Assembly (NCBI GenBank): GCA_030619985.1 | Contig: JAUXAI010000003.1 | Span: forward strand, 1 to 62,354 | Direction: 5' to 3' | Length of the DNA stretch: 62,354 nucleotides | Source: a bacterium | GTDB lineage: Bacteria > UBP18 > UBA7526 | Part shown: piece after piece, positions 6,065-59,115 of the stretch | Numbering within the stretch: position 1 is the stretch's first letter | Layout of the letters: every line of letters starts with the position of its first letter | Made by a program: the position numbers and the translations under genes | Notes under the pieces: generated by a model | Told to the model about the DNA's origin: nothing | What the model saw: the letters and a program-made list of their open reading frames with translations, nothing else | Database searches by the model: none

Positions 6065-6667
6065 TTATCCTAATGCCTGTAATGTGCGGAAGATATGATG
6101 GGCTTCTGGAGAAATAGATATTATTCTTCCGCAAGCTTTACAACGCATCGAAATAGCGTTTTTCTTCTCTTGATGGAGAAATAGTTTTTGGCCACAGATA
6201 CAGATAAATCCCTTGAGCCGAGCCGGATTTCCCATCACTAATCCGTGAGCTGGAATATCTTCGGTGACTACCGCTCCTGCTCCTATCATGGCATACTCAT
6301 TAATAGTAACCCCGCAGACTATAGTTGCATTGGCCCCTATTGAAGCACCTCTTTTAACCGTGGTTCCCATAATCTCCCATTTTTCATTAAAGGCTCGAGG
6401 GAAGAGATCGTTGGTAAAGGTTGCATGGGGACCGACTAGGACATTACTCTTAATGACTACCCCTTTATAGACGGAGACCCCATTCTGAATTTTAACATTA
6501 TCGCCTATATGAACATCAACATCGATATAGACCGATTTGCCGATAGTACAGTTATGACCAATAACCGCTCCTTCTCTAATCTGTGCTTGATGCCAAATTT
6601 TAGTATTTTTACCAATCTTGGCCTGGTTCGAGACCTCAGCTGTGGGATGAATATAAATCTCACCCAT
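6065..6667 (-). CDS. WbpD/WlbB-like hexapeptide-repeat N-acetyltransferase
   Basis: EIYIHPTAEVSNQAKIGKNTKIWHQAQIREGAVIGHNCTIGKSVYIDVDVHIGDNVKIQNGVSVYKGV. Confidence 0.85.
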   Translation of the reverse strand: MGEIYIHPTAEVSNQAKIGKNTKIWHQAQIREGAVIGHNCTIGKSVYIDVDVHIGDNVKIQNGVSVYKGVVIKSNVLVGPHATFTNDLFPRAFNEKWEIMGTTVKRGASIGANATIVCGVTINEYAMIGAGAVVTEDIPAHGLVMGNPARLKGFICICGQKLFLHQEKKNAISMRCKACGRIISISPEAHHIFRTLQALG

Positions 6668-9554: not shown

Positions 9555-10013
9555 TTATTTTTCTACCCGGGTAACAATAAATATTCTACACTTAAAGGTT
9601 TTGGAAAGAATCCTTTCTAAGCGATACCAGAAGTCAGGAAAAGTATTATACTTCAGCCCTTTCTCTTCAATAATGCTAAAGCCGCATTCTTTCAATTTCC
9701 TTTTAGGGATAGCGAAGGTATATTGTAGAATAGTCCTTTTCCTGGTATTTAGTTCATTCATCCACTTTTCTTGACTCTTGATTATTTTTTTGATCCTTTG
9801 GACTATCCTTTCCCAATTCAATTCCCTCTCTACTCTCTGCCTTCCCTGTCTCCCTAATTTTCGGGCAAGTTCAGGATTAGTAAGTAATTTAATGAGTGGC
9901 TCTGCGATTTGATTGATATCAAAGGAGTCTACCAGTAGACCAGTTTCTCCATCGATAATGGCATCAGAGGTTCCTTCAGTCTTTCCACCAATGACCAGTT
10001 TGCTACAAGCATT
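9555..10013 (-). pseudogene. Chimeric remnant: C-terminal GT4 fragment fused to a methyltransferase-like C-terminus
   Basis: Frame reads NACSKLVIGGKTEGTSDAIIDGETGLLVDSFDINQIAEPLIKLLTNPELARKLGRQGRQRVERELNWERIVQRIKKIIKS|QEKWMNELNTRK...LKECGFSIIEEKGLKYNTFPDFWYRLERILSKTFKCRIFIVTRVEK; in-frame TAA immediately upstream at 10014-10016. Confidence 0.75.
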
Positions 10014-10031
10014 TTACACTTAAAGAAAGGT

Positions 10032-10553
10032 TTATTTTTGTGCTTTAATATGTAGGTTGCCAACGATATGTGAACAACTCTCAATCTTTAATCCACACTT
10101 TATAAGCAATTCCTTCATAGTCTGCATTGTAAATCCTGCATAATGAAAGTTTTCTGGATAATCCTGTCCACCATATAGTCGCTTAATGAATTCACGGTCA
10201 GGCAAATTCATTCTGGCTAACTCTCTTACATCCGGACATTCAAGTATTAAAATACCTCCTTTTCTTAGACACTTAATCCATCTTTTTAAAATCTCTTCTA
10301 CTTCACCTTGCGGAAAATGTTCAATCACATCTATCGCTAATATTTCATCCACATTTGAATAATTCAGGTTTCTAATATCTGTAACCACATCAACGCCGGA
10401 AAGGGACCTAATATCAATATTTACATAACCCTCACGAATATGTTTACTACAACCTATATTAAGTCTCAAGCCCTTACCAGAAATAACTTTCCTTTTTCTT
10501 GGTAACTTGAACTTCGAAAAAATATTTAACATAATATCTTCTTTTTCCACCAA
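10032..10553 (-). CDS. SAM-dependent methyltransferase-like protein
   Basis: GLRLNIGCSKHIREGYVNIDIRSLSGVDVVTDIRNLNYSNVDEILAIDVIEHFPQGEVEEILKRWIKCLRKGGILILECPD. Confidence 0.8.
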   Translation of the reverse strand: MVEKEDIMLNIFSKFKLPRKRKVISGKGLRLNIGCSKHIREGYVNIDIRSLSGVDVVTDIRNLNYSNVDEILAIDVIEHFPQGEVEEILKRWIKCLRKGGILILECPDVRELARMNLPDREFIKRLYGGQDYPENFHYAGFTMQTMKELLIKCGLKIESCSHIVGNLHIKAQK

Positions 10554-10681
10554 AATATATATTGTTTCGAAAAGTATAGCGAAATTTTATTACTTTTAGC
10601 AATAAGTAAAGTCTTTGTAGCTTCTTGTTTATTATCTTATGGTTAGCAGAAGAGAAGACACTATAGCAAGGTGACCTCTCT

Positions 10682-11761
10682 CTAACTTCTGATTATTTTT
10701 CTGATTCTCTGGGCTATCCTTTCCCAATTCAATTCCCTCTCTACCCTCCATCTTCCTTGCTTCCCTAATTTTCGGGCAAGTCCAGGATTGGTGAGCAATT
10801 TAATAAGCACCTCTGCGATTTGATTGATATCAAAGGAATCTATTAGCAGGCCAGTTTCTCCATCGATAATGGCATCAGAGGTTCCTCCAATTCTTCCCCC
10901 AATAACTGGCTTTCCGCAGGCATTGGCCTCTGAGTACACAATGCCAAATCCCTCCATACTACTAAGCATAATAAAAACATCACAAGCAGTATAATACAGG
11001 GGGAGTTCCTTCTCATTCACTTTTCCAGTAAAGATTACTTTCTCCTCCAATTTTAAATTCTTTACTATTTTCCTCAGCGTTTCTTTCTCTTCGCCTTCGC
11101 CAACGATCAGATAAACGAGGTTTGGTATTTTCTTTAAAACTTGAGGTAGGGTCTTTAGGACTTTATCGTGACCTTTGTGATTGTCTAAACGGGAAATGGT
11201 TAGAATAACCTTCTTATCCTCCAAATGATGTCTTTCCATGATCGGGAAAGGATCAAGACCAGGATTAAATTTGACTGGATTCACACCAGGATGGACAACC
11301 ACAATCTTTTCCTCTGAGATACCGATTTCAGCCAATTTTTCTTTTGCAAAGTGACAGGCAGTAATTATTCTGTCAGCTCTTTTAAAACTCTTTTGAATGA
11401 TTTTTCTTCTTTCTGGGGGAAGGATTTCCTCCAGATAAATAATGATATTATAAGGAATCTTAAAAAGAAGATTTGATAAGGAGGCCAAGCGAACATAATG
11501 TGACCCATGAGCAATCAGGACCTTTTCTATTTTCTCTCTTTTTAATATGGAGAAAAAAGCGAGGCGGGAGATGGCTATCTTTTTAGTTCGAACTATCTTA
11601 AAGTTCTGTTTCCGATCAAACTCTGAATCTCTTTCTACTCCCGGTGCTAAGACAGTTACTTCTTCACCTAAAGAAGTAAGGTTCTTTGTTAACTCATAAC
11701 AATAGGCTTGAATCCCACCTATCTCAGGTAAAAAACCATTGGTAGCTAATAGAATTCTCAC
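10682..11761 (-). CDS. GT4 glycosyltransferase (tandem paralog)
   Basis: MRILLATNGFLPEIGGIQAYCYELTKNLTSLGEEVTVLAPG...ILTISRLDNHKGHDKVLKTLPQ. Confidence 0.9.
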   Translation of the reverse strand: MRILLATNGFLPEIGGIQAYCYELTKNLTSLGEEVTVLAPGVERDSEFDRKQNFKIVRTKKIAISRLAFFSILKREKIEKVLIAHGSHYVRLASLSNLLFKIPYNIIIYLEEILPPERRKIIQKSFKRADRIITACHFAKEKLAEIGISEEKIVVVHPGVNPVKFNPGLDPFPIMERHHLEDKKVILTISRLDNHKGHDKVLKTLPQVLKKIPNLVYLIVGEGEEKETLRKIVKNLKLEEKVIFTGKVNEKELPLYYTACDVFIMLSSMEGFGIVYSEANACGKPVIGGRIGGTSDAIIDGETGLLIDSFDINQIAEVLIKLLTNPGLARKLGKQGRWRVERELNWERIAQRIRKIIRS

Positions 11762-11763
11762 GA

Positions 11764-12864
11764 CTATTCTCTAATTATTCCTCTAATCTTTTCTGCCATT
11801 TTCTGCCAGTTCAATTCCTTTTCTACTCTCCTCCTCCCCTCTTCTCCTAACTTTCGGGCAACTTCCGGATTGGTGAGCAATTTAATCAATGCTTGGGCAA
11901 TCTGGTTGATATTTAAGGGGTCTACAAGGAGGCCAGTCTCACCATCGATGACAGCATCTGGAACTCCTCCACTCCTTCCCCCAATGACCGGCTTCCCACA
12001 GGCGTTGGCCTCTAAATAGGTAATGCCAAAACCTTCCACATCGCCTTTTTCCTTTATTTCATAGCTGGGCATAATGAATAAGTCGCAGGCCATGTAGTAT
12101 AAAGGGATTTCTTTCTCTTTCACCTTTCCCGCGAAGATCACCCTTCCCTCTAATTTTAGATCTCTCACCATTTCCCTTAGCGCTTCCTCCTCTTTCCCCT
12201 TACCGACAATTAAATAGATCAGGTGGGGCACCTTTTCTAAAACTTGGGGAAGGGCTTTTAAGACATTATGATGGCCTTTTCGTTTGACCAAATGGGAAAC
12301 GGTCAGGATGACCTTTTTGCCTTCGAGATTATACTTCTTCTTAATGGAGGAAGGATCGCACCTGGGATTAAATTTGATTGGGTTCACCCCGGGATAAATG
12401 ACCAAGATCTTCTTTTCTGGGATGCCAATCTCAATCAATTTCTCCTTTGTGAAGTTACTTATCGTGATAACCTTCTTGGCCCTTTCGAAGTTCTTCTGGA
12501 TCGATCTCTTTCTCCCTGGGATAAGGATCTCTCCTCCATAGACAATGATGTCATAAGGGATTTTTAAAAGAAGGTTTACCCAAGAGGCTAAACGGGCATA
12601 ATTCGCCCGATGGGCAACCAAAATCTTCTCTATCTTCTCTCTTTTTAGAATGGAGAAGAAGGTAAAATAGAGGCTAATTTTCTTTTTTATCCTGACTATC
12701 TTGAAGTTCTGCCTTTTATCAAACTCTGAATCTCCTTCTACTCTGGGTGCTAAAACGACTATCTCCTCACCTAAGGAAGTAAGATTCTTAGCCAACTCAT
12801 AGCAATAGGTTTGGATCCCTCCCACCTTCGGTGGAAAGTCATTTGTAGCTAACAGGATTCTCAT
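11764..12864 (-). CDS. GT4 glycosyltransferase (tandem paralog)
   Basis: MRILLATNDFPPKVGGIQTYCYELAKNLTSLGEEIVVLAPR...; closely similar to the neighbouring gene along its length. Confidence 0.9.
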   Translation of the reverse strand: MRILLATNDFPPKVGGIQTYCYELAKNLTSLGEEIVVLAPRVEGDSEFDKRQNFKIVRIKKKISLYFTFFSILKREKIEKILVAHRANYARLASWVNLLLKIPYDIIVYGGEILIPGRKRSIQKNFERAKKVITISNFTKEKLIEIGIPEKKILVIYPGVNPIKFNPRCDPSSIKKKYNLEGKKVILTVSHLVKRKGHHNVLKALPQVLEKVPHLIYLIVGKGKEEEALREMVRDLKLEGRVIFAGKVKEKEIPLYYMACDLFIMPSYEIKEKGDVEGFGITYLEANACGKPVIGGRSGGVPDAVIDGETGLLVDPLNINQIAQALIKLLTNPEVARKLGEEGRRRVEKELNWQKMAEKIRGIIRE

Positions 12865-31739: not shown

Positions 31740-32645
31740 TTAAGTCTTTCTTAGACCAAGATAGAGGACCATGGTAGAAGCAATAGTGAAGAGAGTGAGA
31801 TAGATCTGAGCCCCACTCTGAACAAAATTTAAAAGGAAGCGAAGGGGTAAGAGAAAAATGAGCACCCCTGCTCCTATCCCTAGAATGGAGGCCGGAATCT
31901 TCAAAAGAAGGTCAAACGAGATAAAGACACCTATGACGCCTATGCCGATCAGGATGAGAAGGAAGAAGAGGCCCAGAACCAGACCGAGGTTTCTCCTGAT
32001 AAAAGAAAAAGCCTTCTTGACTGCTCTCTTTAGAATGGAATCCTCAACAACGATTACTATTCCAGAGTAGGAAAAGACAAGGCCCAGGGCAAGGCTAGCA
32101 AGGAGGAGTAAGAAGAAGCCCAAGATTCCCAGAAGAACCCCAAAGACCATCCCTGTCCCCTGACACTTCTGAATGAGAAGATAGATAGGAAGACCGAATA
32201 TTCCGCCCAGGGTTAGAAAGAGAACCTGGAAGGCCAAAAAGAAGAGAAGCCAGAGGAGAAATAGTCGTTTGAAGAAGTAACCTCCATAACGAAAGAATCT
32301 TTTCAAAGTAAACTTCTCCTTCTTTATCAAAGCATCCCTGAATATCCCCTTTATCCCACCCCTTAAGAAGATGCTCAATAGTATGGCCCCTATCCAGATG
32401 AGAAGGAAGAAAAGGCCACAGATTACGATTAATAAGGGATGGGCGCGGAGACCCTGCTGAAATAACTCAGGAGTAAACTTTCCCTTGGTCAACCCGGTAT
32501 AGAATCCCAAAGAGAAGATAATAAAGAGAACGGGAACAATAAATAAAAGTCCCAGAATTATCTGAACAACAAACTGAATCAAAATCAGGGGCCAGTTGCG
32601 ATAGGTGGTCTTGAATCCTTCTTTGATTGCTTCAGTAATGGTCAT
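31740..32645 (-). CDS. Polytopic membrane protein, function unknown
   Basis: Long hydrophobic segments; co-oriented 4-nt overlap with the RodZ-like gene. Confidence 0.7.
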   Translation of the reverse strand: MTITEAIKEGFKTTYRNWPLILIQFVVQIILGLLFIVPVLFIIFSLGFYTGLTKGKFTPELFQQGLRAHPLLIVICGLFFLLIWIGAILLSIFLRGGIKGIFRDALIKKEKFTLKRFFRYGGYFFKRLFLLWLLFFLAFQVLFLTLGGIFGLPIYLLIQKCQGTGMVFGVLLGILGFFLLLLASLALGLVFSYSGIVIVVEDSILKRAVKKAFSFIRRNLGLVLGLFFLLILIGIGVIGVFISFDLLLKIPASILGIGAGVLIFLLPLRFLLNFVQSGAQIYLTLFTIASTMVLYLGLRKT

Positions 32646-33295
32646 TCTTCTTTTTCTCTTACAAAGGTTTTCGTTACTACCTGTCCCCTCTCGCCTGGGG
32701 ACCCAAGGGGTTCTCCATTCAACTCCAACTCTATTCCCCCGGCATTCCCTACTCTTATCTCGAGCTTATTCTCCGCTTCCCAGGTCTTTTCATCTCCAGC
32801 CTTCAATAGTTCTTGAATCTCTTCTCTTTCATCAACAGTAATACTCACCCAGACCTCCTCGAGTGCGATTGCCTTCAGGGTAAGGGGGGCTTTCTCCTCT
32901 TCTATAACCTCAACTACTGGTGGGGAAGAGGGGCGAAAGAAAAGAAACCACCCTCCCCAAACGATGAGAACTATTATACTTATTGCTACGGGAAGGATGG
33001 CTAGTCTTTTAGGCCTTATTCTTTTAGGGATTAACCTCTCTGCTACGGGAACTTTGGTGGTTGTCTCTAGATATTTCTTATACTCTCGAACTAATTCATC
33101 GCTATCTAGATTTAAGAAGTTGGCATAGCTGCGCAGGAAGCCCTGGGTATAGGCAGGGGCCGGAAAGACATCCCAGTCCTCTGCTTCTAGGGCTTTTAGA
33201 TATCTAATACTTATCTTTGTCTTCTTACTTATCGTCTTTAATTTTAATCGTCTCTTCTGCCTCGCCTGCTGCAGTGTAAGGCCAATGGGCTCCAC
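32642..33295 (-). CDS. RodZ-like HTH membrane protein (HTH + TM + DUF4115-like)
   Basis: LQQARQKRRLKLKTISKKTKISIRYLKALEAEDWDVFPAPAYTQGFLRSYANFLNLDSDELV; TM; LEEVWVSITVDEREEIQELLKAGDEKTWEA. Confidence 0.88.
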   Translation of the reverse strand: MEPIGLTLQQARQKRRLKLKTISKKTKISIRYLKALEAEDWDVFPAPAYTQGFLRSYANFLNLDSDELVREYKKYLETTTKVPVAERLIPKRIRPKRLAILPVAISIIVLIVWGGWFLFFRPSSPPVVEVIEEEKAPLTLKAIALEEVWVSITVDEREEIQELLKAGDEKTWEAENKLEIRVGNAGGIELELNGEPLGSPGERGQVVTKTFVREKEE

Positions 33296-33309: not shown

Positions 33310-33700
33310 TTAATAGTTTACAGTAACCAGCGAACAGTAACCAGTAAAACTGTAGATTATTAGAACATCAGATTTGGTAAATTCGAAATTCTAATATTGA
33401 AATTAAGCAAAGCTAATAACCAAGATACAAAACACAGTAACCAAACAGATCCCAATATCCAAATTCAAATGCCCAATGCGCTTCGCTAGCATTGGAGAGA
33501 GCATAAATAATTAAGCATTGCCAAAACAGTTTGGTGATTGGTTATTGGTCATTGATTATTGTTTGTATCTTGTTTCTTGGTGTTTGGTTATTTGTATTCA
33601 TTTCGGATTTCGTGCTTCGGATTTTTGAAATTCTGATATCTGTCCTTCTCCATCTGATATACTGGTAATCTGGTACTCTTTTGCTGTTAACTGGTTACTG
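33310..33700. repeat. Repeat-dense intergenic island including dispersed repeat copy 1 (~33436-33594)
   Basis: Shares ccaatgcgcttcgctagcattggagagagcataaa...gccaaaacagtttggtgattggttattggtcattga...tatcttgtttcttggtgtttggttat with 57826-58028. Confidence 0.9.
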
Positions 33701-33701
33701 G

Positions 33702-35774
33702 TTACTCTTTTTTGAGGTAGCTTTCATCAGCCAGTACTTCCCTCACCTTGCTTCCCCTGTAAGGGCCTACTATCCCTTCCTCCTCCATCATATCAATCAA
33801 TCTTGCTGCCCGGGCATAGCCTACCTTTAATCTTCTCTGTAGCATGGAGACCGAGGCCCTTCTGGCCTGGATGACCACCCTCACCGCATCTTGATATAAT
33901 TCGTCCTCCTCCGGGGTGCTGGGTAAGGAAGGAGCAGCCCTTTCGAAGATATCCTCTACATAGACCGGCTCTGCCTGAGAACGGGTAAACTCTGCCATTT
34001 TCTCAATCTCAGGATCAGTAATGAGCGATCCTTGGATACGTATTGGTTTGGCCTTTGAAGGGTCGGAGAAGAGCATATCCCCTCTTCCCAGTAACTTCTC
34101 TGCCCCACTCATATCCAGAACGATGCGGGAATCAACCCTTGCCGCAACCTGAAAGGCGATCCTCACCGGGAAGTTGGCCTTAATGAGACCGGTAATGACA
34201 TCCACGGATGGCCTCTGGGTAGCAAGGACAACATGAATCCCTACTGCCCGAGCCATCTGGGCCAGCCGGGTGATAGTATGCTCACAGTCCACAGGGGCCA
34301 CGAGCATCAGATCGGCTAACTCGTCAATGATCACGATGATATAGGGTATCTTTTCCACCGAGGTTTTGGCATTATAGCTTCCGATATCCCTAGCCCCGGC
34401 CTCAGAGAATAACTTGAACCTCTCTTCTACTTCCCCCACCGCCCACTTCAGAGCAAAAGTTGCCTTCTTGGGGTCAGTGATTACCGGGGTGATGAGATAG
34501 GGAATGTCATTATAGACCTTCAGTTCTACCCTCTTGGGATCGATTAAGAGGAACTTCACCTCATCTGGGGTTGCTTGAAACAGAATGCTATTTATGATGC
34601 AGTTTATACAGACACTCTTCCCGCTTCCTGTGGTTCCGGCAATCAATAAATGGGGCATGGTAGCCAGATCAGCGATTACTGGTCTACCGGCTATATCCTT
34701 TCCCAATGCCAGGGTAAGTTTTGATGGTGACTCATAGAACTCCCTGGTACTCAGAATCTCTGAGAGATAGACAAAGAAAGGCCTCTTATTGGGAACCTCA
34801 ATCCCCAAGGCCGCCTTTCCCGGAATGGGAGCTTCGATACGGATACTGGGGGCAGCCAATTTCAGAGCGATGTCATTAGAACGAGAGGTGATGGAGGAGA
34901 CGGTCACCCCTTTTGCCGGCTGTACCTCAAACCTGGTAATGACCGGCCCCTGTAGAGCACCAATAACCTTGGCCGATATCCCAAACTCAGAGAGAGTCTC
35001 TTCTAGGAGAACGCCCTTTGCCTTAAGGTCCTCTTTCGCCTCCTCTACCTTTGGCTTAGCGAGAAGAGAGAGATCAGGCATAGTATAGGCCTTCTCCTCT
35101 TCTGGAACCTTCTTTGCTATCTTCTTCACTCTCTTAGGGGTAGGAGCAACCTTCTCCTCTTTAATCTCTGGCCTCTTAATTGCTATCGGCTTGGCTGGTC
35201 TCGGTTTCCGGGAAAATATCCCTATTATTCCCCGAAAGAAAGATAGAATCCCCTTTCCTAACAGAAGGAAGAATTTAGGATAGGAGACCTCGGCTGCTAA
35301 AGGTAAAGAGACGACTAATACCGTTACCGCAATGAGATAGGCACCCGAAGCCCCAAAGACCTGCTTCAGTCCATCAGAGAGGACGATTCCCAGATGTCCT
35401 CCCAATGCCAATCTTTTTTCTAAGATTAAAGAATATTTGGAAGAAAGTAATGTACAGGATGAAATAAGAAAGAGGATGACTCCTAAGATTCTGTAGGCCT
35501 TCTTGTGGAACTTCAGCCCCCGAAATCTTCTTATCCCCCAGACAAGAGTCACTAAAATTATAAGATAGGCGCCATAACCCATGACGAAGTTCAGTCCAAA
35601 GGCCAGATAAGCACCAGCCTTCCCCATCCAGTTCACTGCTGGGGTATTGGGTGGCTGCTGATAGTAGGCAATATCCGTTGGCTCATAAGATATGAGACTG
35701 AGAAGAATAAAAATAGTCAGAGCAAATAGGATAATCCCTTCTATCTCACTAATCCTCTTCTCTTTCATTGGCAT
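33702..35774 (-). CDS. ftsK: DNA translocase FtsK/SpoIIIE
   Basis: 4-TM N-terminus; MPHLLIAGTTGSGKSVCINCIINSILFQATPDEVKFLLIDPKRVELKVYNDIPYL; C-terminal winged-helix gamma-like domain. Confidence 0.96.
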   Translation of the reverse strand: MPMKEKRISEIEGIILFALTIFILLSLISYEPTDIAYYQQPPNTPAVNWMGKAGAYLAFGLNFVMGYGAYLIILVTLVWGIRRFRGLKFHKKAYRILGVILFLISSCTLLSSKYSLILEKRLALGGHLGIVLSDGLKQVFGASGAYLIAVTVLVVSLPLAAEVSYPKFFLLLGKGILSFFRGIIGIFSRKPRPAKPIAIKRPEIKEEKVAPTPKRVKKIAKKVPEEEKAYTMPDLSLLAKPKVEEAKEDLKAKGVLLEETLSEFGISAKVIGALQGPVITRFEVQPAKGVTVSSITSRSNDIALKLAAPSIRIEAPIPGKAALGIEVPNKRPFFVYLSEILSTREFYESPSKLTLALGKDIAGRPVIADLATMPHLLIAGTTGSGKSVCINCIINSILFQATPDEVKFLLIDPKRVELKVYNDIPYLITPVITDPKKATFALKWAVGEVEERFKLFSEAGARDIGSYNAKTSVEKIPYIIVIIDELADLMLVAPVDCEHTITRLAQMARAVGIHVVLATQRPSVDVITGLIKANFPVRIAFQVAARVDSRIVLDMSGAEKLLGRGDMLFSDPSKAKPIRIQGSLITDPEIEKMAEFTRSQAEPVYVEDIFERAAPSLPSTPEEDELYQDAVRVVIQARRASVSMLQRRLKVGYARAARLIDMMEEEGIVGPYRGSKVREVLADESYLKKE

Positions 35775-37382: not shown

Positions 37383-37500
37383 GGGTTAGGGTTAAGTAGT
37401 TAGTTTAGTTGTTGGGTTAGGTAGTTGGTCTTTTTAAAACACCTAACCCTTACCGAACTACTAAACCCACTACCTTACCCTAATCCAACTACGTAACCTG
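37383..37500. repeat. ~118-nt imperfect inverted repeat element, copy 1 (GGGTTAGGGTTAAG...)
   Basis: Near-copy at 45872-45991; left and right halves are imperfectly self-complementary. Confidence 0.85.
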
Positions 37501-37513
37501 TGGCTACTATTGA

Positions 37514-39616
37514 CTACTTATGTTTCCTGGGTCGTGTTTTTTCCCGTAGGGCTGCCTTTCGGGAGAGGTTAGTCCTTCCCTGGTCATCGATCTCAATGAC
37601 CTTTACCTCCACCTCCTGGCCTTCTTTTAAAACATCCTTCACATTCTTGACAAAGCCCTCTGCTAACTGGGAAACATGGACGAGGCCTTCCTTCCCGGGG
37701 AGGATCTCAACAAAGGCCCCAAAGTTCATGATTCTGGTCACCTTCCCTTTATAGATTTTTCCTACCTCAACCTCTTCTGTGAGATAGTTAATCATATCCA
37801 GGGCAGCCTGAGCCTTGGCCTTATCTGGGGAGGAGATGGATATCTTTCCATCATCATCGATATTCACCTCGGCACCAGTTTCCTCAATGATCCCCTTTAT
37901 CGTCTTACCTCTTGGGCCAATGATACCTCCAATCTTTTCTTGTTTCACATAAGTAACGATAATATGGGGAGCATAGACGGAGATTCCCTCTCTCGGCCGT
38001 GAAATGGCCTGGTTCATCTTATCCAGGATGAAAAGGCGGGTTTTCCTCGCCTGTTCCAAGGCCTCTTTTATCAAGGAAGTGGTGACTCCAGAGGTCTTGA
38101 TATCTAAGTGAAGAGCAGTAATCCCTTCTCTCGTTCCGGCGATCTTAAAGTCCATATCACCCAAGGCATCCTCCACCCCCAAGATATCGGTAAGGAGAGC
38201 ATACTTCTCCCCCTCCATTACTAATCCAATGGCTGCCCCGGCAACCGGGGCTTTAATGGGGGCTCCCGCATCCATTAAAGATAGGCTTGCCCCACAGACA
38301 CTGGCCATGGAAGAGGAGCCATTGGATTCCAGGATATCGGAGACCACCCTTATGGTATAGGGGAACTTATCACTGGGAGGGATGACAGGAAGAAGGGCTT
38401 TCTCTGCTAAAGCGCCGTGGCCAATCTCTCTCCTGCCTGGGCCCCTCAATGGCTTCGTTTCTCCCACACTAAAGGGCGGGAAATTATAGTGAAACATAAA
38501 GGTTTTTCGGAATTCCTTCTCCAGGGCATCAATACGTTGCTCATCCTCTGTAGTTCCCAAAGTAGTAGCCACCAGGGCCTGGGTCTGTCCTCTGGTAAAG
38601 AGGGCACTTCCATGGGCCCTGGGGAGGATTCCTACCTCGCAGGTAATGGGCCTGATCTCGTCCGCTCTTCTCCCATCTGCTCTACGATTCTCATCTAAAA
38701 TGGCCCGGCGCAGAATTTCTTTCACTATCTTGTCTACGACAAATTTGATGTCTTTCTCCTTTTCTGGAAATTCAGTGCTTAAGGCCTCCATAGCTTCATT
38801 CTCAATCTTGCTTAGCGCTTCATCCCTTTTGGTCTTTTCCTTTATCCTATAGGCCTCCTCTAATCTGGAAGTGGATAGTTCTCTCACCCTCTTCTCTATC
38901 TCCTCATCCGGAGCATAGAGGACGATTTCTCTCTTGGGTCTGCCACAGGATTTGATCAACCTTTCCTGAATCTCAACAAGCCTTCTGATGTGCTCTTTGG
39001 CCTTCTCTATCCCTTCTAAAATGGTCTCCTCTGGAACCTCATGGGCTTCAACCTCTATGGTTGCTATCGCACCCTTAGTCCCGACAACTACCATATCCAG
39101 CCTGCTTCTTTCCAATTCCTCATAGGTAGGATTGATGATAAACTCTTCCCCAATCCGTCCCAGGCGCACGGCGCCTACCGGACCACTAAACGGGATATCA
39201 GATATAGAAAGGGCAGCTGAGGCACCGATTATGGATAAGATATCCGGGTCATTCTCCCCATCTGCAGATAGCACGCTCACCGTAATCTGGACCGCATTCC
39301 TGATTCCTTTCGGGAAAAGAGGCCTTAAGGGTCGATCGACTAATCTTCCGGTCAGGATTTCCCAATCCCTTGGCCTCCCTTCTCTCTTAAAGAAGCCCCC
39401 GGGAATCTTCCCCGCAGAATAGGTCTTCTCCCTATAATCAACGGTCAAGGGAAAGAAATCAACATCCTCCCTGGCTTCTTTGGAGGCTACCACAGCCACC
39501 AGGACCACAGTATCCCCATAGCGTACGGTAACCGCACCATCCGCCTGCTTAGCCATCTTGCCAGTTTCAATAGTTAGTTTTCTTCTGGCGATTTCTAATT
39601 CTTCTTTTCTTACCAT
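37514..39616 (-). CDS. pnp: Polyribonucleotide nucleotidyltransferase
   Basis: GGFFKREGRPRDWEILTGRLVDRPLRPLFPKG...FRKTFMFHYNFPPFSVGETKP...C-terminal KH and S1 domains. Confidence 0.97.
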   Translation of the reverse strand: MVRKEELEIARRKLTIETGKMAKQADGAVTVRYGDTVVLVAVVASKEAREDVDFFPLTVDYREKTYSAGKIPGGFFKREGRPRDWEILTGRLVDRPLRPLFPKGIRNAVQITVSVLSADGENDPDILSIIGASAALSISDIPFSGPVGAVRLGRIGEEFIINPTYEELERSRLDMVVVGTKGAIATIEVEAHEVPEETILEGIEKAKEHIRRLVEIQERLIKSCGRPKREIVLYAPDEEIEKRVRELSTSRLEEAYRIKEKTKRDEALSKIENEAMEALSTEFPEKEKDIKFVVDKIVKEILRRAILDENRRADGRRADEIRPITCEVGILPRAHGSALFTRGQTQALVATTLGTTEDEQRIDALEKEFRKTFMFHYNFPPFSVGETKPLRGPGRREIGHGALAEKALLPVIPPSDKFPYTIRVVSDILESNGSSSMASVCGASLSLMDAGAPIKAPVAGAAIGLVMEGEKYALLTDILGVEDALGDMDFKIAGTREGITALHLDIKTSGVTTSLIKEALEQARKTRLFILDKMNQAISRPREGISVYAPHIIVTYVKQEKIGGIIGPRGKTIKGIIEETGAEVNIDDDGKISISSPDKAKAQAALDMINYLTEEVEVGKIYKGKVTRIMNFGAFVEILPGKEGLVHVSQLAEGFVKNVKDVLKEGQEVEVKVIEIDDQGRTNLSRKAALREKTRPRKHK

Positions 39617-43439: not shown

Positions 43440-43500
43440 AGTTAACAGTTTACAGTGTACAGTAAAAAAACTGGTTACTGTTCGCTGGTTACTGGTTACT
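43440..43500. repeat. Self-complementary AGTTAACAGTTTACAGT / ACTGGTTACTGTTCGCTGGTTACTGGTTACT repeat
   Basis: Direct reading. Confidence 0.85.
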
Positions 43501-45871: not shown

Positions 45872-45991
45872 GGTTACGGTTAGGGTTAAGTTGTTAGTTT
45901 GGTTGTTAGGTTAGGTAGTTGGTCTTTACACACCTTTCCCTTGCCTAACTACCAAACCCACTACCTTACTTTAACCTAACTACATAACCTG
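45872..45991. repeat. ~120-nt imperfect inverted repeat element, copy 2
   Basis: ggttagggttaagttgttagtttggttgttaggttaggtagttggtcttt...; near-copy of 37383-37500. Confidence 0.85.
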
Positions 45992-46000
45992 CGTCGATTA

Positions 46001-47257
46001 TTAACTGCTGACTTTTTTCTCTTCTGTTTCCCCTATCAAATCCTTTGCTGCTTTTAGGATTTTTTCGGCAGTCTTCTTTCCAATTCCTTTAACCTTTGTC
46101 AAATCTTCCATTTTACTTTGGGCAATATCAACTACGTTCTTAAAACCTGCTTCCTCTAAAGCCTTAGCACTCTTTTCTCCTACGCCTGGTAGTTCAGTCA
46201 ACTTTATCTTTGCCTTCTCTTCCAAGGCCTTTTCTTCCGGGCTCTTGAGATCTATCTTCCATCCAGTCAGTTTTGCTGCCAGGCGAACGTTCTGTCCTTT
46301 TTTACCAATGGCCAGGGAGAGCTTATCCTTGGGAACGATGACCTCCATCCCCCCCTCTTCCTTGTGGACGATAACTTCCTGCACCTGGGCGGGCTTTAGG
46401 GCGCTTGAGACAAAGGCAACCGCATCCTCATTATAGGGGATGATGTCGACCTTCTCTCCTCTTAGTTCCTGGATGATGGAGTTCACCCTTGCTCCCCTGG
46501 TTCCCACACAGGAGCCCACAGCATCGACATTGGCATCCTTTGAGAAGACGGCGATTTTCGTCCTCCCTCCTGCCTCCCGGGCGATATTTTTTATCTCAAC
46601 AATCTTCTCATATACCTCAGGGACCTCTAATTCAAATAATCTCCTCACCAGTCCCGGATGGGTCCTGGAGAGTATGATCTGGGGTCCCCTCGGGGTTCTC
46701 TTTACATTCAGGATATAGGTCTTTATCCTATCCCCGTATCTATAATCCTCACCCCAGGTTTGCTCCCTTACGGGCAGGATGGCCTCTATTTTTCCTAAGG
46801 TCACGATTACTGTTTTATGTTCACTGCGCTGGACGATTCCCGTAATAATATCTCCCTCCCTCTCTTTAAACTCTTGGTATATCTTCTCCCTCTCCGCCTC
46901 CCTTATTCTCTGAGTAACCACCTGCTTTGCCGTCTGGACGGCAATCCTCCCAAACTCCTTGGGGGTGATCTCTACCTCTATCTCCTGATTCAACCTCACC
47001 TTCTTCTTTATTCTCTTGGCCTCTTCCTTCCCTATCTCTATCCTGGGATCCTCTATTTCCTTAACCACTCTTTTTTTGACCAGTACCCTCAGTCTTCCGG
47101 TATCTGGACTAATATCGATGGTTACATTCTCACTGGAACCGAAGTGCTTCTTATAGGCAGAAAGGAGAGCGGAGCGTAGGGCCTCAACAATGATCCCCAG
47201 CTCTATTTCCTTCTCCTTCCTTATCTCGTCCATTAATCCCTTCAACTCAACACTCAT
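46001..47257 (-). CDS. nusA: Transcription termination/antitermination protein NusA
   Basis: GIIVEALRSALLSAYKKHFG...PVREQTWGEDYRYGDRIKTYIL...GTRGARVNSIIQELRGEKVDIIPYNED...LAIGKKGQNVRLAAKLTGWKIDL. Confidence 0.97.
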   Translation of the reverse strand: MSVELKGLMDEIRKEKEIELGIIVEALRSALLSAYKKHFGSSENVTIDISPDTGRLRVLVKKRVVKEIEDPRIEIGKEEAKRIKKKVRLNQEIEVEITPKEFGRIAVQTAKQVVTQRIREAEREKIYQEFKEREGDIITGIVQRSEHKTVIVTLGKIEAILPVREQTWGEDYRYGDRIKTYILNVKRTPRGPQIILSRTHPGLVRRLFELEVPEVYEKIVEIKNIAREAGGRTKIAVFSKDANVDAVGSCVGTRGARVNSIIQELRGEKVDIIPYNEDAVAFVSSALKPAQVQEVIVHKEEGGMEVIVPKDKLSLAIGKKGQNVRLAAKLTGWKIDLKSPEEKALEEKAKIKLTELPGVGEKSAKALEEAGFKNVVDIAQSKMEDLTKVKGIGKKTAEKILKAAKDLIGETEEKKVSS

Positions 47258-53401: not shown

Positions 53402-53656
53402 TCGTGACCATTCCCCGTAAAGTCGCGGAGTTTATCCCGCGAAAAGCGGGGCTCCTACGGGGCAGGCGCGTCTTTTCTTTTTGCGTCTTTTCAGTTAAAT
53501 TTAGCGTTTTTGCGGTTGCATTATTCGTGTCTATTCGTGTCTTAATTGCTTCCATTTTTGCTTTACAGTTCGCGTTAACCCCGTTAGAAGTAAGACGCCT
53601 AAGGCGTCTGCCTCCGATAAACATCGGAGGATTTCTAACGGGGTGAATTCGTGTCT
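53402..53656. repeat. Composite repeat island: TTCGTG words with two palindromic elements (53413-53462 and 53579-53643)
   Basis: CCCCGTA...CCCGCgaaaaGCGGG...TACGGGG; and CCCCGTTAGAA...[AGACGCCtaaGGCGTCT][CCTCCGATaaacATCGGAGG]...TTCTAACGGGG. Confidence 0.92.
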
Positions 53657-56811: not shown

Positions 56812-57750
56812 TCACTTTTTAAAACCTTTCTCTTCATTACCCTGGGTCTTTTTCGACTTCTTCTCTTCTTTCTTTTTCTTTTTTGCGGGTTTCTCTGCGA
56901 CCTCTGCGGTTGCAGGCTTTCCCTCTTTGGGCTTCGCCTTTTTCGCAGGTTTAGCAACTTTCTCCTCAGGTTTGGGTATCTCTTCTACCTTTTTAGGAAT
57001 CTTCTCTAGTTGTTCGGGAATCTCTTCTTCTACTTTTGCAGGAATCTCTTCTTCTGCCTCTTTCAAAATTTCCGGCCTTCCCTCCAGGATAGCATCCGCC
57101 ATCTTGGTGCACACCAGAGTAATGGCCCGAATGGCATCATCATTCCCCGGGATGATGTAATCCACCCCCGTAGGGTCACAATTAGTATCTACTAAGGCAA
57201 CGACCGGTATCTTTAACTTGTTGGCTTCCTTAAGAGCGATTCTTTCCTTATAGACATCGATCAGGATTAGAGCGCCAGGGAGACCATCCATCCCCTTTAT
57301 TCCTCCCAGAGCACGCCCTAGCTTCTCCTTTTCTCTTAATTTCTTAAGGGTTTCCTTTTTGGTCAGGGAAGAGAACCCTCCTTCCTTCTCTTGAGCCTCT
57401 AATCTCTTCAGGTATTCGATATTCTTCTTTATGGTCTGAAAATTGGTGAGTGTCCCTCCCAGCCATCTCTCCGTGACATAGGGCATCCCGCAGCGCTTTG
57501 TCTGGCTAAGGATGGCATCCTTTGCCTGCCTCTTGGTCCCCACAAAGAGGAGGGTTCCCCCTTCCTTTGCCAATTCCTTAACGAACTTACAGGCCTCTTC
57601 TAACTTCCTCAGAGTCTTCTGAAGATCGATGATATGAATGCCATTCCTCGCCCCAAAGATATATTCCTTCATCCTGGGATTCCACCTCTTGGTCTGATGG
57701 CCAAAGTGCATCCCAGCCTCCAAGAGCTCTTTCATAGAGACAACTGCCAA
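56812..57750 (-). CDS. rpsB: 30S ribosomal protein S2 with charged C-terminal extension
   Basis: [51 protein letters not shown]...; tail [25 protein letters not shown]...[15 protein letters not shown]. Confidence 0.96.
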
Positions 57751-57825
57751 ATTACACCCCCCTCTGCCGCCTTTGGCGGAGAAATTCCAAATACCAATAT
57801 CTAAACATCAAGATACAAGAGACAA

Positions 57826-58028
57826 TAACCAAACAAATTCCAATATCCAAATTTAAATACCCAATGCGCTTCGCTAGCATTGGAGAGAGCATAAATAAAA
57901 TAATTAAGCATTGCCAAAACAGTTTGGTGATTGGTTATTGGTCATTGAGTATTGTTTGCCCATCCTCCGCAGTAGCAGTGCAACTGCTACGGAGGATGGA
58001 TATCTTGTTTCTTGGTGTTTGGTTATTA
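57826..58028. repeat. Dispersed repeat copy 2, interrupted by a 42-nt palindromic insertion (57959-58000)
   Basis: Aligns with ~33436-33594 except for cccatcctccgcagtagcagtgcaactgctacggaggatgga inserted between attgtttg and tatcttg. Confidence 0.93.
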
Positions 58029-58115: not shown

Positions 58116-59003
58116 TTAGGCTCTGGGATGAGCCTTATCATATACCCTCTTTAATCTCTCAGTTGTGAGATGGGTATAGACCTGGGTAGTGGATAGAGAG
58201 GCATGGCCCAGTAATTCCTGAATACTTCGCAAATCCGCCCCAGCATCGAGTAGGTGGGTGGCGAAGGAGTGCCTCAGGGTATGGGGGCTTATCTTCTGGG
58301 AGAGGGAGGCTTTCTTGATATACTTATCTAAAAGCCTCCTGATACTCCTTGCCGATATTCGTGCACCGGATTTATTTAAAAAGAGTCCCCTCTCCCCTTC
58401 TCCTGGATGAAGGGTCTCTCTTCTCCTTAAATAATTATGGAGGGCTTGGGTAGCCTCTGTGCCAAAGGGGGCCAGGCGCTCCTTCCCTCCCTTACCCCAT
58501 ATCTTGGTCACCCCTCCCAAGAGATCGACATCATTCACATTCAGTCCCACCAGTTCACTCACCCTCATTCCCGTAGCATAGAGGAGCTCTAAGATGGCCC
58601 GGTCGCGCAGGCCCAGGATGCCCTTCTCGTCTGGAGACTCGAGAAGGGCAAATACCTCTGAAAGCGCCAGGAATTTGGGAAGTTTTTTGGCGATTTTGGG
58701 GGTCCTCGTTCCCAGGGCAGGGTTGATCTCCAGATACTCCTCCCTACAGAGAAATCTAAAAAAGGAGCGCAGGGTGGCTAATTTCCTGGCCATGGTGGCG
58801 TGGGAAAGCCCCCTCCTCTGTAAGGAAGCTAAGAAGCGCCTAATAGTCAAGTGATCGATATATCTCACTTTAAGAGGTATTTTTTCTTTCTTCAAAAAAT
58901 TCAAGAAGTCATTGAGGTCAGCAGAGTAACTCTTCAGGGTATGAGGAGAGACGTTCTTCTCTCCTTTTAGATAATTGCTAAACTTGGCAATATATTCTTC
59001 CAT
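58116..59003 (-). CDS. Tyrosine recombinase XerC/XerD-like
   Basis: LELLYATGMRVSELVGLNVNDVDL...ISPHTLRHSFATHLLDAGADLRSIQELLGHASLSTTQVYTHLT. Confidence 0.94.
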   Translation of the reverse strand: MEEYIAKFSNYLKGEKNVSPHTLKSYSADLNDFLNFLKKEKIPLKVRYIDHLTIRRFLASLQRRGLSHATMARKLATLRSFFRFLCREEYLEINPALGTRTPKIAKKLPKFLALSEVFALLESPDEKGILGLRDRAILELLYATGMRVSELVGLNVNDVDLLGGVTKIWGKGGKERLAPFGTEATQALHNYLRRRETLHPGEGERGLFLNKSGARISARSIRRLLDKYIKKASLSQKISPHTLRHSFATHLLDAGADLRSIQELLGHASLSTTQVYTHLTTERLKRVYDKAHPRA

Positions 59004-59024: not shown

Positions 59025-59115
59025 TAGTAACCAGTAACCAGGTTACAGTGAATAGAAAAGACTGGTTACTGTTCGCTGGTTACTGTAAACCTCTATTTCA
59101 CCGATCGCTATTCAC
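59025..59115. repeat. Self-complementary AGTAACCAGTAACCAG / CTGGTTACTGTTCGCTGGTTACT repeat
   Basis: agtaaccagtaaccaggttacagtgaatagaaaagactggttactgttcgctggttactgtaaac. Confidence 0.9.

Follow-up and report, generated by a model that had tools for sequence, protein, structure and literature searches.

The window analysed here, a 62,354-nt stretch of bacterial DNA, carries two copies of a dispersed, AT-rich repeat, only one of which is interrupted by a palindrome, and this raises the question of whether the palindrome is a mobile unit in its own right and, if so, what moves it. The initial annotation took it for a clean 42-nt insert at 57959-58000 in one of two aligning repeat copies. The copies do align (D4, 84% identity over 115 nt; D7, 98% over 61 nt), the filled one reading TGTTTG-CCCATCCTCCGCAGTAGCAGTGCAACTGCTACGGAGGATGGA-TATCTTG and the empty one TGTTTG^TATCTTG, uninterrupted, and against this empty copy the boundaries of the insert are unambiguous: its length is exactly 42 nt and no base is duplicated. 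Taking out the 42 nt recreates the empty junction to the base, so target-site duplication is absent. Folded as single-stranded DNA the 42-mer reaches -17 kcal/mol, a value equalled by none of 200 shuffles, and its 19-nt arm recurs nowhere else in the window, with a chance expectation of 0.02 at up to three mismatches. The hairpin as drawn initially left out two unpaired bases, CA, in its 5' arm. This asymmetric bulge, confined to that arm and reading CA or CAG, is constant across the hairpin family described below.

The element is intergenic, lying between rpsB and a gene for an Xer-type tyrosine recombinase. Because the latter sits between rpsB and further minus-strand genes, its position suggests a housekeeping xerC rather than a dedicated mobiliser. 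The features of the two repeat sites are collected in the table.

Features of the filled and empty repeat sites in the window, with the evidence on which each rests
Feature	Position	Strand	Evidence
Hairpin element, 42 nt: CCCATC-CTCCGCAGTAGC-AGTGCAACT-GCTACGGAG-GATGGA, CA bulge on 5' arm	57959..58000	+	sequence, fold
Filled dispersed-repeat copy, left part	57784..57958	+	sequence, repeat alignment
Filled dispersed-repeat copy, right part	58001..58028	+	sequence, junction search
Empty dispersed-repeat copy, insertion point between 33565 and 33566	33396..33594	+	sequence, alignment, junction search
Xer-type tyrosine recombinase gene (Phage_integrase), neighbour of element	58116..59003	-	
Ribosomal protein S2 gene (rpsB), neighbour of element	56812..57750	-	
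FtsK/SpoIIIE translocase gene, beside empty repeat copy	33702..35774	-	
RodZ-like protein gene, beside empty repeat copy	32642..33295	-	

The window is rich in other repeats. The host repeat itself (33396-33594 and 57784-58028) is made of TTG-ending heptamers, has copies across the family and forms an imperfect long inverted repeat (CAAGATACAAA ... TTTGTATCTTG). Heptamer-like repeats (AGTAACCAG / ACTGGTTACTGTTCGCTGGTTACTG), which are also common elsewhere in the host genus, occur between genes in both orientations at 2591-2720, 33315-33346, 43440-43494 and 59026-59097, and a telomere-like repeat, G-rich and then C-rich (GGTTAGGGTTAAG... / ...ACCTAACCCTTACC), is present at 37384-37525 and 45878-46016 (77-94% alike). 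Direct repeats in neighbouring minus-strand ORFs at 9774-12863 (71-84% and 78% alike) suggest tandem paralogous genes. A second short palindrome type, CCTCCGATAAAYATCGGAGG, is found twice in the genome, at 53611-53630 of the window and at 22103-22122 of contig C6.

The palindrome belongs to a real, mobile hairpin family that is broader than first noted. The family consensus is CCCGTC-CTCCGCAGTAGC-nnn-GCTACGGAG-GRTGGA, with a stem of CTCCG, bulge and GTAGC and the tail GRTGGA. Most lineages have a 36-nt form; a longer stem brings the majority of copies in the host genus, Elusimicrobia and Omnitrophota to 41-42 nt, and the longest copy (L102; L numbers denote fetched loci) extends the range to 36-45 nt. 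Across 82 de-duplicated sites, on which all edge and flank statistics are based, each base of the CGTC at element positions 3-6 is found in 75-79 sites, the window copy reading CATC. In the DNA fold this CGTC is able to form base pairs with GATG, one of them a G.T wobble, and two mispairs in the ends are constant: a terminal C.A and a G.T four bases in. The CCCGTC...GRTGGA strand of the 36-mer folds 1.8 kcal/mol better than its complement, while in the window 42-mer, where the G.T is lost, the two strands fold equally well. The core is inverted within fixed ends (form B) in 13 of the 82 sites, so the side of the bulge is not essential for strand choice. In L065 and L086 the outer ends are kept and the apical part is another hairpin.

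A scan of one genome per species recovered at least 110 stretches with the element, and among the matches listed there are at least about eleven phyla. The carriers listed comprise Deltaproteobacteria and other Proteobacteria, Elusimicrobia, Verrucomicrobia, Omnitrophota, Planctomycetota, several CPR lineages, Cloacimonadota, Fibrobacteria/Chitinispirillaceae, Latescibacteria, Nitrospirae and Acidobacteria. Every named carrier is a metagenome assembly, so mis-binning may account for some of the taxon labels. The distribution is patchy: among 60 relatives and random genomes the element was found in the host genus only, and in the phylum of DeMMO6_18, a genome with 24 copies, four of 247 genomes have it. 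A reversed control pattern gave no matches in the genome searches for the hairpin family. This wider search, which the initial annotation had proposed, rules out that the palindrome occurs nowhere else. As for a vehicle, 72,556 plasmid and 50,697 phage records contained no convincing match; two IMG/VR contigs, the viral nature of which is unchecked, carry one copy each (L138, 1513-1536; L139, 9636-9659). We found no earlier description of the hairpin family in the literature, limited to open-access papers.

Conservation ends at the edges of the element, and beyond them the sequence is nearly random, starting with the first flanking base. The exceptions are position -1, where 72 of the 82 sites have a purine (G in 45, A in 27), and position +2, with a weaker purine bias. 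Flanks that are themselves palindromic (stem score of 7 or more) were found at 15 of the 82 sites, as compared to a mean of 1.4 and a maximum of 7 when left and right flanks were shuffled 200 times. The targets include dRS3-like CGTCATTCCGGC..GCCGGAATCC palindromes (L043, L063 and L072) and, in L036, another member of the hairpin family. In L044 (Liptonbacteria) the element lies within the loop of another palindrome, and in L014, from the window genome, a palindrome closely related to that of L044 lies in the loop of the element; nesting is, thus, reciprocal. This second palindrome (TCCAGCCTTCGTAGCC..GGCGGAGTTGGCCA; 1440-1520 in L014, near 4140 in L044), which either hosts the element or is hosted by it, looks mobile as well.

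Empty sites were sought across the family by BLAST of the joined flanks against the fetched loci, yielding candidate empty copies for 44 of 119 sites; the weaker candidates, in low-complexity DNA, are not to be counted. Four pairs of empty and filled sites are free of gaps: L052/L073 (92% over 60 nt), L057/L128 (95% over 58 nt), L106/L065 (94% over 51 nt) and L110/L065 (90% over 60 nt). The empty match of L103 (94% over 50 nt) has one gap, away from the junction. In the strong pairs, as at the window site, target duplication is zero. The initial annotation had proposed compiling empty and filled pairs to define a target preference. Insertion is exact, duplication-free and single-copy, mostly 3' of a purine and often in palindrome loops.

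Orthologous genes of the host genus document the same event inside coding sequence. We denote the window genome G000, its congeners G001 and G002, and members of other genera of the same family G003-G005. Searched by pattern only, G000 has three intact copies (two search patterns) and a fourth that is split by another palindrome (contig C69, L014). The trpE gene of G002 carries a 42-nt element in frame, and its orthologue in G000 is empty with near-identical flanks; the two differ by exactly 42 nt, or 14 codons, the insertion point falling in the interdomain linker that follows Anth_synt_I_N (28-166) and precedes Chorismate_bind (243-496). A palindrome, CACCCCGACAGAGGTCGGGGTC, adjoins the element in trpE (L021, near codon 220) and is present in G000 and G002, not in G003. 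The archaemetzincin gene (Peptidase_M54) is layered: that of G003 has no palindrome, that of G002 has a first palindrome, and that of G000 has this palindrome, its core flipped relative to G002, with the 42-nt element in its loop. The frames remain open in all three. Copies also lie inside the open frames of DUF2157 and peptidase S10 genes, for which no orthologue was compared. Only Pfam-supported intragenic ORFs were counted, since some ORFs are probably spurious (overlapping frames, GC-rich DNA). Such species-specific copies imply movement after the congeners split, and these empty and filled pairs with exact junctions, trpE among them, uphold the initial view, in which the palindrome is a self-contained unit that can insert, codes for nothing and duplicates no target sequence.

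The two states of the dispersed repeat could in principle also have arisen by loss of an ancestral palindrome from the empty copy, an outcome that would have refuted that view. When the empty junction was used as a query, each of the six family genomes yielded matches, and reading the junctions confirmed empty copies in G001, G002, G003 and G005 and, in addition to the window copy, in G000. Filled copies number one in G000 and five in G001 (contigs C10, C48, C86, C88 and C25), and a pattern search of G003-G005 found no copy of the palindrome. Because empty sites predominate and occur in sister genera without the element (two such genera have them), the empty state is likelier to be ancestral and the difference to be an insertion rather than a deletion, as far as sequence comparison can tell. 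The empty trpE and archaemetzincin orthologues at equivalent sites point the same way, the trpE pair deciding the polarity in our view, and we consider ancestral presence followed by deletion highly improbable. What may be said for it is that the five filled G001 copies share one site of the same repeat; for this reason we cannot exclude that repeat and element were copied there as a unit, and such a composite may itself multiply. In G004 (L175, contig C114, near 6270-6290) this TGTTTG^TATCTTG junction holds another palindrome, CCTGCCTGTCGGCAGACAGG, of 20 nt, and may therefore be an insertion hotspot. That the hairpin is instead a functional host element, a terminator, attenuator or protein-binding site kept in place by selection, is hardly credible: stable, intergenic hairpins would suit such roles and REPs can acquire them, but the flanks are unrelated, copies lie within coding sequence, presence differs at orthologous sites of sister species, and a placement beside the same genes across species was not seen in the loci examined.

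The closest resemblance among known systems is to the CGTC-tagged REPs, comprising CGTC-1 to CGTC-4, Neisseria dRS3 and Rickettsia RPE-4 and RPE-6, the mobiliser of which was not known when they were described (Di Nocera et al. 2013, PMC3733652). Like the element, these are short palindromes with a CGTC end, mostly intergenic, in part intragenic, capable of nesting in other palindromes, present in distant phyla and without a transposase found. Families 1-4, however, have a stem of 8-9 bp with a complementary AT start, a loop of 4-5 nt and the tail CCA (PMC3733652), whereas the element has the stem CTCCG-CA-GTAGC, the tail GRTGGA and an extra CC before CGTC, occurs mostly as single copies rather than head-to-head dimers, and keeps one consensus over at least about eleven phyla. 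Since the defining stem and tail differ, the shared CGTC does not, on present sequence evidence, justify filing it under CGTC-1 to CGTC-4. With the Rickettsia palindromic elements it shares in-frame insertion into protein genes and the character of a selfish palindrome with an unknown mobiliser, but it differs in forming a family of 36-45 nt found in many phyla; in the literature consulted here, only RPE-4 and RPE-6 among the RPEs are equated with CGTC families (PMC3733652).

GTAG REPs and REPINs, with their RAYT (TnpAREP), are likewise non-autonomous, strand-asymmetric, imperfect hairpins with a bulge or mismatch. The element, in contrast, begins with CCCGTC and has GTAG only inside its stem, moves as one hairpin where REPINs form a doublet, and does not flank the Y1 genes examined, none having been detected in G000-G002. 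Strand-specific processing of RAYT-type REPs uses the 5' GTAG together with a bulge, mismatch or loop, weighted differently by group (PMC8266576); only the bulge has a parallel in the element. The IS200/IS605 elements, which transpose as single strands by Y1 HUH enzymes, also have hairpin ends with unpaired bases and leave no target-site duplication. They target a fixed tetra- or pentanucleotide, however, whereas the element targets a purine or a palindrome loop and has neither a transposase gene nor paired left and right ends. MITEs such as RUP, NEMIS and ERIC are non-coding, non-autonomous inverted repeats too, but are described as 70-300 bp long, and for the element neither a target duplication nor a related autonomous element was found. 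Its consensus ends are also dissimilar to what we take to be the R-box motifs of integron attC sites.

The initial annotation had further advised looking for a trans-acting transposase that shares the ends, and none was found. Pfam Y1_Tnp (PF01797) has no match in G000, G001 or G002 (84, 75 and 93% complete, respectively). Y1 genes are present in 12 of 20 genomes searched, carriers and relatives, and at none of 30 examined Y1 loci of other carriers was the element nearby; with none in three congeners and no association elsewhere, Y1_Tnp was rejected as the present-day mobiliser in the host genus. IS110/IS1111 (PF02371) was set aside likewise, being undetected in six genomes of the family. As the genomes searched for transposases are 53-93% complete, a single absence is weak evidence; absence from three congeners together is stronger. 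A search for an autonomous version with split arms also came up empty: orphan arms in 1.1 Mb of loci are degenerate or nested, and none brackets a gene.

The reading that we favour, and hold to be probable though far from settled, takes the element for a mobile palindrome of the REP/RPE kind that is not autonomous: an as yet unidentified enzyme acting in trans, probably HUH-like, would move it as a single-stranded hairpin. The moving form would be the folded single strand, as we infer; because the two strands are set apart by the C.A and G.T mispairs and the CA bulge, an enzyme could choose one of them. It would then make precise cuts, R^CCC at one end and GGA^N at the other, and insert the hairpin into single-stranded DNA, for example extruded hairpin loops or the lagging-strand template. 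The actor in trans is most likely an HUH-type or other single-strand nuclease or recombinase, at work now or formerly, and copies would have spread between phyla by horizontal transfer and then multiplied locally. The single-strand step is inferred only, from analogy and from the preference for loops.

An enzyme of this kind could also have been lost: the element may belong to the CGTC-tagged REP superfamily and owe its mobilisation to a RAYT/IS200 enzyme no longer present in these genomes. The CGTC at the 5' end, the short palindrome, in-frame intragenic copies, palindromic targets and the lack of a linked transposase are all traits of CGTC REPs (PMC3733652), and Y1 genes do occur in many of the carriers and relatives searched. 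We nevertheless find this scenario quite unlikely, given that the AT-initial stem, the 4-5 nt loop and the CCA tail of the described families are all missing, that the CGTC of the element can pair with GATG, and that copies have moved after the congeners split, yet Y1 went undetected in all three. It is also possible, albeit unlikely, that no dedicated transposase is involved, and that hairpin oligonucleotides or template switching at replication forks, with host replication and repair enzymes, are responsible. The undetected Y1 and IS110 genes of the host genus, the unrelated palindrome at the same junction in G004, the nesting of palindromes of differing sequence, the replaced apical cores of L065 and L086 and the flipping of cores within fixed ends would all agree with this; base-exact edges and the same 36-mer in at least about eleven phyla would not arise from template switching alone. 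By way of speculation, to be taken as no more than a minority possibility, the element could be a minimal mobile DNA, a self-folding strand of 36 nt that crosses phyla via a conserved host process, without a transposase, with different palindromes landing in one another's loops. The trans-acting, HUH-like enzyme remains our preferred explanation.

To our knowledge, the movement of single REP-like hairpins is still poorly understood. Many REP-type repeats are restricted to one species, genus or order, and among these the presence of the same 36-mer in at least about eleven phyla is unusual. The family offers base-exact pairs of empty and filled sites in many lineages, an orthologous pair inside a single genus and a firm end consensus, and with these the cutting and joining reaction becomes directly testable. 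The in-frame copies indicate that palindromes can add peptides to enzymes with the reading frame kept.
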